NCBI GenBank assembly: GCA_017405865.1
Contig: JAFQZN010000042.1
Coordinates: forward strand, 1 to 52,795
DNA: 52,795 bases
DNA from: Oscillospiraceae bacterium
GTDB lineage: Bacteria > Bacillota > Clostridia > Oscillospirales > Oscillospiraceae
Direction of reading: 5' to 3'
The notes under the pieces were generated by a model, which saw only the letters and a program-made list of their open reading frames with translations, searched no databases and had not been told where the DNA came from. Each line of letters opens with the position of its first letter. The first letter of the stretch is position 1. Made by a program: the position numbers and the translations under genes. Of the stretch, positions 40,753 through 44,246 are shown piece after piece.

Positions 40753-42078
40753 ATGAGAAAATTCCTTGCGATCCTCGTTTGCAGACTGATCCGGCTTGTC
40801 GGCGGGCTTGTCGGGAAGGGGACGAGCCTGCCCGGAAAATATGCACTGAAGATCTGCCCGGACATCCTTGCGCGCATTCAGAAGCCCAAGATGATCGTAG
40901 CGGTCACGGGCAGCAACGGCAAGACCTCCACGGTGGAGATGATCGCCTCCGTTCTGAAGGCCTCCGGGAAGACCGTCGCTTACAATGCGGAGGGCTCCAA
41001 CCAGATCGAGGGTGTGACGACGATGATCCTCAATTCCTGCACCCTCGGCGGGAAAATGAAGCAGGACGTCCTGCTGATCGAATCGGACGAGCGCTATACG
41101 AAGTACACCTTCCGCTGGTTCCACCAGACGCACTACGTCATTACGAACCTCTACCGCGATCAGCTCACGCGAAATGGTCATCCCCAGTGGGTCTACGACG
41201 CGATCAAGGAGAGCGTTTTTGACGACACGACCCTGCTTCTGAACGCGGACGATCCGACGGTATCCCTGTTCGGGCAGGGAAGAGATAACGTCCTGTGGTT
41301 CGGACTGGATCACAGCAGCGTGGACACGGAGGAGTTTTCCGGCGCTTACAACGACGGGCTTTACTGCCCCGTGTGCGGCAAGCCGCTGACCTATGACTAC
41401 TATCACTTTAACCACGTCGGCAAATATCGCTGCGATTCCTGCGGCTTCCGGCGTCACGACACGGACTACACGGTGACGGACGTCGATCTGGAAAACAGCA
41501 AAATCACCGTCAACGGCAAGGACGAAATCAAGCTCGCTTTTCGCAGCGTCTATAACATTTATAATATTCTTGCTGCCTATGCCGTCTGCACCCTGCTCGG
41601 CATTCCCGGCGAGCAGATCGCCTCTCTTGTCAGCAATTATATTTTGAAGAACGGAAGATATATCGAATTCACGCTCGGCGCGCATCCGGGCATCTTCCTG
41701 ATCTCCAAGCATGAAAACTCGATCTCCTACGACCTGTCGTTCAAATTCGCCATGGCGCAGAAGACACCGTGCAGTGTCGTGATCGTTGTCGACGCGGTCA
41801 GCCGCAAATACTTCACCAGCGAGACCTCATGGCTGTGGGACATCAACTTTGAGCAGCTCGATCAGCCGCAGGTCGAGAGCATCTACCTGTGCGGCAAATA
41901 CTGCAACGATCTTGCAACGCGCTTCTCCTTCACGAAGATCCCGCAGGAGAAGCTCAAGGTGTTTGAGGACATCGACGCCGCCTGCGCCGACCTGCGCGAG
42001 CACGGCGATCAGCAGCTTTATGCCGTGACCTGCTTCTCGGACAAGGACAAGCTGATGTCCAACGTGACGGTGAAATGA
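40753..42078 (+). CDS. murT: MurT-like Mur ligase
   Basis: A 441-residue Mur-ligase-family protein. With GatD, MurT amidates the D-glutamate of lipid II. ATP loop GSNGKTST at 53-60, the four-Cys zinc ribbon (CPVC ... CDSC, residues about 205-230) typical of MurT, and the C-terminal DUF1727 domain with SWLWDINFEQL are present. The DE-motif reads LIESDERYTKY and the next RDQLTRNGHP, where most MurTs have VDE and RDQLDRYGE, so it is a divergent branch. SD AAAGGAA; the gatD-like gene follows in the same unit. Confidence 0.9.
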   Translation: MRKFLAILVCRLIRLVGGLVGKGTSLPGKYALKICPDILARIQKPKMIVAVTGSNGKTSTVEMIASVLKASGKTVAYNAEGSNQIEGVTTMILNSCTLGGKMKQDVLLIESDERYTKYTFRWFHQTHYVITNLYRDQLTRNGHPQWVYDAIKESVFDDTTLLLNADDPTVSLFGQGRDNVLWFGLDHSSVDTEEFSGAYNDGLYCPVCGKPLTYDYYHFNHVGKYRCDSCGFRRHDTDYTVTDVDLENSKITVNGKDEIKLAFRSVYNIYNILAAYAVCTLLGIPGEQIASLVSNYILKNGRYIEFTLGAHPGIFLISKHENSISYDLSFKFAMAQKTPCSVVIVVDAVSRKYFTSETSWLWDINFEQLDQPQVESIYLCGKYCNDLATRFSFTKIPQEKLKVFEDIDAACADLREHGDQQLYAVTCFSDKDKLMSNVTVK

Positions 42079-42086
42079 GGAACGCT

Positions 42087-42806
42087 ATGGAAGTTAAGAT
42101 TTTGCATCTTTACGATGATGTGATGAATCTCTACGGGGAATACGCGAACGTTTCCGTTCTGGCGCGCTTCCTTGCCGATCTGGGCTGCACAGTCAGCGTA
42201 GATACGCTCTCCCTGTATGAGCAAAAGGATATTTCCGGTTACGACTTTTTCTATATGGGCTCCGGCACGGAGCGGAAGCAGAAACTGGCGCTTTCGCAGC
42301 TTGTGTCCTACCGCGACGCGCTCAACGCTGCCTGTGAGCAGGGAAAGGTCCTGCTTTTTACCGGCAACAGCTTCGAGCTGCTCGGCGACAGGCTCACGGA
42401 CGCGGAGGGGACGGAGTACGAAGGCCTGCATATCGCCTCATTTGAAACAGCCGAGGGGAAGCGCCGCATCACAGGCGACTGCCTCGCCGTCTTTGACGGC
42501 TTTGACGAAACACTGGTCGGCTTTATCAACAAGTGCAGCAAAACCTCCGGCGTGGAGCAGCCGCTGTTCAAGCTTCAGATGGGCTTCGGCAATGAGTCTG
42601 ACAGGGGAGCCGAGGGCTTCCGGAAGAATAACTGCTTCGGCACCCATCTGACCGGACCGCTCCTCGTCAAGAACCCCGCCATGCTGCGCTATATCGCAGC
42701 CCTGCTCGGCGCGGAAAACCCGGAGCGCGTTTCCTATCCCTTCATGGAAAAGGGCTATGAGATCACGGCCTCGGAGCTGAGAAAGCGCCTTGAAACGATA
42801 AAATAA
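42087..42806 (+). CDS. gatD: GatD-like protein lacking the glutaminase Cys and His
   Basis: A 239-residue class I glutamine-amidotransferase-like protein, the partner of MurT. Overall it aligns with Staphylococcus GatD: LYDDVMNLYGEYANVSVLARF, FYMGSGTERKQ, EGLHIASFET, GFGNESDRGAEG, GTHLTGPLLVKNP. The nucleophile motif is however FTGNSFELLG, where GatD has ICGGYQFLG: position 93 is Gly, no Cys nearby. The catalytic His (LHGP in GatD) is Thr189, with a His at 187. The glutaminase should be inactive. The start is ATG at 42087 (GAGG 6 nt before); an ATG at 42075 overlaps murT's stop (ATGA) but lacks an SD. Confidence 0.88.
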   Translation: MEVKILHLYDDVMNLYGEYANVSVLARFLADLGCTVSVDTLSLYEQKDISGYDFFYMGSGTERKQKLALSQLVSYRDALNAACEQGKVLLFTGNSFELLGDRLTDAEGTEYEGLHIASFETAEGKRRITGDCLAVFDGFDETLVGFINKCSKTSGVEQPLFKLQMGFGNESDRGAEGFRKNNCFGTHLTGPLLVKNPAMLRYIAALLGAENPERVSYPFMEKGYEITASELRKRLETIK

Positions 42807-42857: not shown

Positions 42858-43454
42858 TTATTCTCCCTTGAAAAGACGCGACAGCGGCTTGTAGATCAGC
42901 ATGGAAATGAAAACGCTGATCAGCCCCTTGACAAGTGTGAACGGGAGATTGAAGATCAGCAGCGACTCAAAAATGCTGCCGACGGAGGGGAGGATTGCCT
43001 GATACATATCAAGCACCGCCTGCTCCGGGAAGCCGAGGACGCTGTAGTACAACGGGTAGACGATGAAGTAATTCACCGGTACGCTGACAAGCGCCATGGC
43101 TGCCGCGCCGACGAGACCGGCGATCAGCGCGCGCATTTTCGTCTTCTTCCGCTGATAGATCAAACCGGCGACCAGAACAAACACCGCGCCGAGCAGAAAG
43201 TTGGATAGCTCGCCGACGAAGCCGCTCTGCGAGACGGCGAGATGGATCAGATTCTTCAGAAGCTGGATGAGAACACCCGCCAAAGGTCCGAAGGCGTACG
43301 CGCCCAGCAGCGCCGGAAGATCGGAGAAATCGAGCTTGAGAAAGCTCGGCACGAGGGGAATGGATATTTCAAGATACTGCAAAACGACGGCGACTGCGGT
43401 CAGCACGCCGACCACGGCAATGATCCTTGCTCCGATTCTCTTTTTTTGCTTCAT
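42858..43454 (-). CDS. ribU: Riboflavin ECF transporter substrate subunit
   Basis: A 198-residue, six-helix S component of an energy-coupling-factor transporter for riboflavin/FMN. The RibU pattern LEISIPLVPSFLKLDFSDLP and GPLAGVLIQLLKNLIHL is clear. The ATP-binding ECF module must be encoded elsewhere. The start is ATG at 43454 with GGAGG before it; the frame extends upstream only through riboswitch sequence. The FMN riboswitch next to it confirms the substrate. Confidence 0.94.
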   Translation of the reverse strand: MKQKKRIGARIIAVVGVLTAVAVVLQYLEISIPLVPSFLKLDFSDLPALLGAYAFGPLAGVLIQLLKNLIHLAVSQSGFVGELSNFLLGAVFVLVAGLIYQRKKTKMRALIAGLVGAAAMALVSVPVNYFIVYPLYYSVLGFPEQAVLDMYQAILPSVGSIFESLLIFNLPFTLVKGLISVFISMLIYKPLSRLFKGE

Positions 43455-43472
43455 ATACGTTCCTCCGTAAAA

Positions 43473-43498
43473 AAGCCCGAAGAAAACTCTTCGGGCTT
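43473..43498 (-). terminator. Riboswitch expression-platform terminator
   Basis: 11-bp arms at 43473-43483 and 43488-43498 with a U-run on the minus strand just before the ribU SD. It should form when FMN is bound. Confidence 0.88.
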
Positions 43499-43510
43499 GG
43501 AATGATAAGT

Positions 43511-43630
43511 TCCGTCTTCTTCCATCCAGACTGTACTGTCGGTTTCGGAATCGCACCGAATCATGCGCTTAACGCGCTCGCGGACTTTACCGCCGGTCGG
43601 GAATTGCACCCTGCCCTGAAGACAATATTT
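43511..43630 (-). ncRNA. FMN riboswitch (RFN element)
   Basis: On the minus strand the RFN consensus is visible in order: TCTTCAGGGCAGGGTG, AATTCCCGACCGGCGGTA, AGTCCGCGAGCG, GATTCCGAAACCGACAGT, then AGTCTGGATGGAAGAAGA closing P1 with the 5' TTGTCTTC. It controls ribU by transcription attenuation through the hairpin at 43473-43498, so high FMN would shut off riboflavin uptake. Confidence 0.97.
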
Positions 43631-43700: not shown

Positions 43701-44246
43701 CTATCCTTGATTTTCCGTGACGCTTTCCGTTACGGCTTCAGTCGGCGCGTCCGTCGCCTCGCTCACGTTTTGCGGCTCCGACGCCTGCGGCATGCTGAAG
43801 CCGTGGATGACGCCCTCCGGCGCGGTGTTCGTGACGTCGCCGCCGATGATGATCCCGTCGTAGACCAGGACGCTGGCGTAGACGGGAGCGGACGCCTCCG
43901 GATAATTCAGGATTTCGTAGACGTAGCGCGTGACTTCCTTGCCTGCGTACTGTGTCAGATCAAAGCCCTGACTTTTCTGCAGGTCATTGTAGCGGGCAAA
44001 GACCTCGTTTTCCGCTGTATCCGGAATGCGCACCTTCTGCGCCTCCGTCGGCTCTGCATTGACGCTCCAGCCGAAGGTCGCAAGAAAGGCAACGCGTTCG
44101 TCGTTCGTGCTGCCTGCCTGCACTTGGGCATCGGCAGGCGCGCCGTCGGCAGTGGCAAGCAGGACAATCAGCAAAACTGCCGCAATGAGGATAAGGCAGG
44201 CCGCGATCAGCTTGGTCTTTGAAACTTTTGCGGTCATAACAAACAT
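43701..44246 (-). CDS. DUF4830-domain exported protein
   Basis: A 181-residue protein with an N-terminal membrane segment (LIAACLILIAAVLLIVLLA) and an outer DUF4830 domain: VAFLATFGWSV, VRIPDTAENEVFARYN, LQKSQGFDLTQYAGK and IIGGDV ... HGF. The tail is Thr/Glu-rich. The family is common in Clostridia and of unknown function. SD GGGGGG before the ATG. It diverges from the pseudouridine synthase gene, with an AGTATACT palindrome at 44272-44279 that offers a -10 box to both strands, without strong -35 boxes. Confidence 0.82.
   Translation of the reverse strand: MFVMTAKVSKTKLIAACLILIAAVLLIVLLATADGAPADAQVQAGSTNDERVAFLATFGWSVNAEPTEAQKVRIPDTAENEVFARYNDLQKSQGFDLTQYAGKEVTRYVYEILNYPEASAPVYASVLVYDGIIIGGDVTNTAPEGVIHGFSMPQASEPQNVSEATDAPTEAVTESVTENQG

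Follow-up and report, generated by a model that had tools for sequence, protein, structure and literature searches.

Loss of both glutaminase residues from GatD in a clade of MurT/GatD pairs found mainly in Clostridia

The MurT/GatD pair described here comes from an Oscillospiraceae bacterium (assembly GCA_017405865.1, contig JAFQZN010000042.1, positions 1 to 52,795, a stretch of 52,795 nucleotides that is referred to as the window). It appears to derive from MurT/GatD, the amidotransferase for the D-Glu of lipid II, and to have become independent of glutamine. With a probability that we put at roughly 85%, its MurT is a ligase that works independently of glutamine, and its GatD is non-catalytic. 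That ammonia is, in addition, the nucleophile in pairs of the window's type, called type A in the following, is a narrower claim, for which the chances are about even. MurT would still bind ATP, and would probably turn the D-Glu alpha-carboxyl group of lipid II into an activated acyl phosphate. GatD would not hydrolyze glutamine, and would be kept in a complex with MurT as the structural and activating subunit that the ligase needs. In type A, free ammonia would be the likeliest nucleophile, leading to D-isoglutamine. The absence of the catalytic residues had been noticed in a sequence-only reading. The observation is confirmed and widened here to a clade-wide variant of a known enzyme, and the interpretation that went with it is partly supported.

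The two genes are on the forward strand, and their reading frames overlap by 4 bp. The first (40753..42078) encodes a MurT-type ligase of 441 amino acids with a Mur ligase middle domain and a Cys4 zinc ribbon (Pfam Mur_ligase_M, 43.2 bits; MurT_C, 74.2 bits), which matches S. aureus MurT (7q8e) with an E-value of 2.7e-55. The adjoining gene (42075..42806) encodes a GatD-like subunit of 243 amino acids (Pfam GATase_3, 59.6 bits), which is aligned by phmmer with the solved S. aureus GatD (5n9m, 8.2e-26; 6gs2, 9.2e-26). The pair is a relative of the curated NCBIfam isoglutaminyl synthase equivalogs, yet it scores far below their cut-offs (MurT 194.2 bits against 800, GatD 116 bits against 400). 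The genome contains one GATase_3 and one MurT_C match, and a second, intact MurT/GatD pair was not found in the assembly, which is 92% complete. Elsewhere in the window, an FMN riboswitch (Rfam RF00050, 117.6 bits, 43510-43627, reverse strand) sits at the start of a gene for an ECF transporter S component, which also matches the riboflavin type (42858-43556, reverse strand). A DUF4830 protein, to which no function is assigned, is encoded at 43701-44246, also on the reverse strand.

In the alignment with S. aureus GatD, TICGGYQFLG is paired with FTGNSFELLG in the window, and GTYLHGPIL with GTHLTGPLL. The place of Cys94 is taken by Gly97 (42363..42365), and that of His189 by Thr193 (42651..42653). 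The Cys to Gly and His to Thr changes that had been read from the window are thus correct. Their original numbers, Gly93 and Thr189, fit a start at the ATG at 42087, whereas counting from the ATG at 42075 gives Gly97 and Thr193.

The loss is neither a sequencing error nor a mutation of one strain, as Gly and Thr are present in all 15 loci read in the genus (the window and 16 further genomes, one of them without a match and one with a fragment). Thirteen matches came from other genera of the family. Of the twelve that were read, five have Cys and His, one has Cys and Tyr, and six lack both residues. An intact-looking relative (L023) keeps the Cys and has Tyr in place of the His. The order was represented by 147 genomes. 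A match scored above 80 bits in 27 of them; both residues are present in six of these and both are absent from 21, the window's included. For the class Clostridia (196 genomes), the reading covered 108 GatD loci from 106 genomes; Cys and His are found in 71, the Cys is missing in 33, and both residues are missing in 25.

A further branch, here called LHG, has divergent GatD motifs (LHGDRGN and FTNxLGP). An LHG query against named genomes retrieved 79 loci, including Acetobacterium, Anaerofustis, one Collinsella and four Propionibacteriaceae MAGs. Neither Cys nor His occurs at the two places in the 83 LHG GatD rows (one row is unaligned at each place), which comprise 78 of these 79 loci and five survey loci. 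In the locus that was left out (L294, Syntrophaceticus), the Cys is replaced by Val and the His is retained, and the matching stretch of the genome contains stops. Two LHG GatDs were tested and were not recognized by any Pfam family; their MurTs match MurT_C. LHG GatDs with no recognizable MurT nearby are found in a Clostridia bacterium (L251, 6001-6609) and in a Family XIII MAG (L286, 1237-1848), where the MurT may lie elsewhere. In Actinomycetes, 53 of 118 genomes have no GatD match at 1e-8. Loci were read for 63 of the 65 matching genomes; 60 have Cys and His, two lack only the Cys, and one has Gly and Gln. These Actinomycete counts speak neither for nor against the idea of a group B bridge ligase that is discussed below. 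The clade reaches beyond genus and family, and is found mainly in Clostridia, the class sampled most, with a few records from Collinsella and Propionibacteriaceae. The suggestion of a clade-wide variant holds for a group wider than genus or family, and an alignment of homologues bears out both the conservation of the loss (15/15 genus loci) and its covariation with MurT (shifts at positions 112, 137, 139 and 349).

The degenerate pairs apparently form a clade of single origin, judging from two MurT phylogenies. In a FastTree phylogeny of 145 MurTs (midpoint root), the partners of TGN-type and LHG GatDs are on one side of a branch with a support of 99, and there is no intact dyad on that side. 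In a PMSF tree of 92 MurTs, from which the trait columns were removed and six Actinomycete rows with too short a MurT were dropped, one change separates the 49 degenerate rows from the other 43, which include nine partial losers. The branch that unites all degenerate MurTs has an SH-aLRT support of 86, below the starred level of 95, as against 99 in FastTree. In the PMSF tree, types A, B and LHG are each set apart by a branch with a support of 100, type iii is not one group, and the TGN types without LHG require two changes. Outside the clade, dyad residues were lost separately in six families (f64, f37, f51, f75, f41 and f30). In family f64 (L133, L139, L140, L154), both GatD residues were lost independently and the MurT motifs that were looked at are unchanged, which perhaps represents a switch to ammonia. 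In family f51 (L136, L137), the Cys of GatD is kept and the His is replaced by Asp.

Type A GatDs also conserve the segment of the former nucleophile, T-G-N-x-x-E (T 0.92, G 0.97, N 0.89, E 0.83). A replacement nucleophile Cys shared across the clade was not found by sequence comparison. Within the window's branch, the most widely conserved Cys is Cys154 (S. aureus position 150), which 22 of 36 type A GatDs contain; it does not occur in the type B (0/14), type iii (0/3) or LHG (0/83) proteins. Of the 36 type A GatDs, 25 have a His at window residue 191 (S. aureus position 187), which is absent from types B and LHG. Another Cys with a His nearby had been named as the finding that would overturn the idea of a lost glutaminase. 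By sequence, no such Cys is clade-wide, but part of type A may have a private Cys154/His191 pair. Since the window has both residues, which are also frequent in type A, a different glutaminase site is conceivable, and this counts against our explanation; we regard the two residues as a loose end rather than a new dyad. The degenerate GatD is under purifying selection, with a median dN/dS of 0.146, compared to 0.104 for MurT (ten genus members, 45/45 pairs each, at a partly saturated dS of about 1.1), and looks functional.

MurT residues were counted, in S. aureus numbering, in 119 clade members (35 type A, 14 type B, three type iii, 67 LHG) and in 75 partners of GatDs with an intact dyad. The third residue of the catalytic triad, MurT Asp349, which the sequence-only reading had missed, aligns with Glu357 in the window (41821..41823). 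This position is Asp in 75/75 intact partners, Glu in 27 and Asp in eight of the 35 type A MurTs, Asn in 13 and Lys in one of the 14 type B MurTs, Asn in 61 and Gly in six of the 67 LHG MurTs, and Asp in all three of type iii. In S. aureus MurT, the D349N exchange is reported to abolish catalysis in vitro, and T60A, E108A and N267Y to lose activity (PMC6113224). Arg at position 112 (Arg114 in the window, 41092..41094) is specific to the clade, with 116/119 occurrences compared to 0/75 in intact partners. Asn at position 139 is present in 117/119 compared to 2/75, and Asp137 in 0/119 compared to 75/75. The window has TRNGH at residues 139-143 (41167..41181), in a loop at the GatD interface, where intact partners mostly have DRYGE. 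The DE and RDQL motifs had been described as divergent. In type A, the motif residues E108, D110, E111, R133, D134, Q135 and R138 are in fact retained, but their neighbours are altered (Arg at 112, Thr at 137, Asn at 139, His at 141).

The ATP loop and zinc ribbon of MurT had been judged intact, and this applies to type A as a whole, as K59, T60, N85, E108, N267, R298, K315 and the four zinc Cys residues are kept in 35/35 proteins. Across the clade, E108, D134, R138, K315 and the four Cys residues are present in 119/119 MurTs each, K59 in 116/119 (three gaps) and N85 in 117/119 (two gaps). T60 and N267 are variable in types iii and LHG: T60 is replaced by Gly in two of three type iii MurTs, R298 is altered in two of three, and N267 is replaced in 14 of 67 LHG MurTs. 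Ten MurTs from independent partial or full dyad losers inside the intact clade have Asp137 and Asp349 in 10/10 cases, unlike the degenerate clade. This difference is the strongest indication that more happened in the clade than the loss of a glutaminase.

Three options had been offered for the pair, namely use of free ammonia, supply of ammonia by another protein, or a different ligation at lipid II. Free ammonia is favoured among them by the S. aureus C94G variant, because it loses glutamine-dependent activity at pH 7.5 and 8.5, keeps NH3- and NH4Cl-dependent amidation at pH 8.5, and still needs GatD, as MurT or GatD alone is inactive, according to the original report (PMC3266927). A different ligation also has something in its favour, namely that MurT was remodelled along with GatD and that Acetobacterium is among the members of the clade. 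Three acidic residues are described to ring an opening towards GatD in pneumococcal MurT (PMC6085368). By our alignment, the residue at 349 and D355, which is present in 35/35 type A MurTs, are two of the three in type A, and acidic residues at an opening that faces GatD would suit the passage of NH4+/NH3. Exactly one MurT_C match was found in 21/21 clade genomes checked, which is what a replacement of the usual amidase by the pair would lead to. The MurE of the window's genome has the motif DNPR, which we take to be the meso-DAP motif. Some observations are less comfortable for an ammonia enzyme. The S. aureus pair is reported not to use ammonia at pH 7.5 (PMC3266927), so that a natural ammonia enzyme would need further adaptation. 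In view of the D137 and D349 kept by the ten convergent losers, remodelling of MurT is seemingly not required for a switch to ammonia alone. Arg112, Asn139 and T-G-N-x-x-E likewise have no obvious role in such an enzyme. The literature searched, as far as its text was accessible, contained no analysis of the cell wall of any type A organism.

MurT is a ligase known to act on the D-Glu alpha-carboxyl group, which is where the bridges of group B peptidoglycan begin, and Acetobacterium, which belongs to the LHG branch, is generally credited with a group B wall. This makes the LHG pair a candidate for the bridge ligase. It is possible, though we hold it only tentatively, that the pair joins another amine (an amino acid or a diamine) to the D-Glu, which would be the group B bridge amino acid in Eubacteriaceae and an undescribed substituent in the window's branch. 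The most specific version, in which the whole degenerate clade consists of D-Glu alpha-carboxyl ligases for amino acids or other amines, with LHG as the group B bridge enzyme of Acetobacterium and Eubacterium and type A making a new D-Glu branch in the meso-DAP walls of gut Clostridia, is slightly more doubtful still. The coordinated changes at MurT positions 112, 137 and 139, partly in the GatD-interface loop, fit a new substrate, but those at 137 and 141 may be neutral, as Ala at the pneumococcal equivalents reportedly had minor effects (PMC6085368).

Further indications come from the Eubacteriaceae (f74), in which 36 of 40 genomes have a GatD match and 30 were read, with eight intact and 22 LHG (one of which could not be aligned where the Cys would be). 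The assignment of f74 to Eubacteriaceae is supported by CdhC, an acetogenic-pathway protein that is present in 3/3 of its genomes compared to 0/10 others. Taking the best MurE match per genome, the motif is DNPA in 17/17 LHG genomes with a MurE read (two classed as LHG via named records), and DNSR in at least six of the eight intact genomes. DNPA fits the consensus D(D,N)P(N,A) given for L-Lys MurE (PMC6113224). The wall amino acids listed for E. limosum are Ala, Glu, Lys, Orn and Ser (PMC4791908), and B 2alpha is among several wall types given for Eubacterium (PMC11382707). However, MurE was not found at threshold in 7/30 genomes of the family, one genome (G533) has a DNPA MurE yet no GatD match, and the contrast between intact and LHG may reflect a single event. 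LHG pairs also occur alongside a DNPR MurE (G229, G090), and the MurE motif in 25 degenerate genomes is DNPR in 18, DNPA in four and another in three. A Lachnospiraceae MAG of 1.5 Mb (G379) has three degenerate pairs of three types, two of them on one contig (L376, L377, L378), and no intact one, and a Propionibacteriaceae MAG (G375) has an LHG pair and pieces of a GatD with the His kept, hinting at more than one product, although MAG contamination is possible. No gene for the group B bridge enzyme is named in the literature found on it, in so far as its text was available. Unusual MurE substrate motifs, QDPR and EDPG, accompany the type B pairs of family f26 (L211, L215), and one genome (G530) has a second, weaker GatD match beside an intact GatD.

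Other explanations appear considerably less probable. A second glutaminase or amidotransferase that feeds ammonia to MurT is unlikely: GlmS lies a few genes from the pair in 3/23 neighbourhoods, one of them from the Acetobacterium group (L185), and this is the only hint for an ammonia supply by another protein, but GlmS and GlmM are ordinary wall-precursor genes. The search for a conserved third gene was negative, as no family recurs in more than four of the 23 neighbourhoods (naive ORF calling, with neither gene of the pair labelled in three), and the largest cluster mixes GlmS in three loci with PurF in one. It is just as improbable that GatD is a sensor, which would bind glutamine or another amino acid without hydrolysis and gate MurT. 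Arg at S. aureus position 128, presumably the counterpart of pneumococcal Arg142, is present in 36/36 type A and 14/14 type B GatDs, but in 0/83 LHG proteins, and the canonical E147 and H149 (80/80 each) are found in 0/36 type A and 0/14 type B GatDs. The pneumococcal Arg142 is said to capture glutamine (PMC6085368). Least likely of all is a decaying or non-functional pair. It would account for the absence of both glutaminase residues, but hardly for purifying selection, the adjacency of MurT and GatD in most loci read, or near-invariant residues specific to the clade.

Amidation of D-Glu affects peptidoglycan cross-linking and innate sensing. The degenerate pair is carried by many gut and acetogenic Clostridia, and probably couples either ammonia itself or some other amine to the wall precursor. 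A large clade that has kept the ligase and discarded the glutaminase suggests that the two functions have been uncoupled in nature. Should the amine be one other than ammonia, the clade would supply a direct candidate for the enzyme behind group B cross-bridges. The literature searched, which did not reach most subscription papers, yielded no description of a GatD that naturally lacks the dyad.

With the MurT/GatD of S. aureus and S. pneumoniae, the window's pair shares the gene order, both families by sequence, the ATP-site residues of MurT and the zinc ribbon Cys residues. It differs from them in the absence of Cys94 and His189, in Glu instead of Asp349, and in Arg, Thr, Asn and His at MurT positions 112, 137, 139 and 141. 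The Cys to Gly change is the same as in the S. aureus C94G laboratory mutant, which loses the use of glutamine and keeps that of NH3 at pH 8.5 (PMC3266927). In contrast to this mutant, the variant described here is natural and clade-wide, and is accompanied by loss of the His and by changes in MurT. The archaeal MurT-like proteins resemble the window's ligase in that they belong to the MurT group and lack a partner with glutaminase activity. They are reported to have no GatD (PMC11915815), whereas in the window's clade GatD is kept and conserved.
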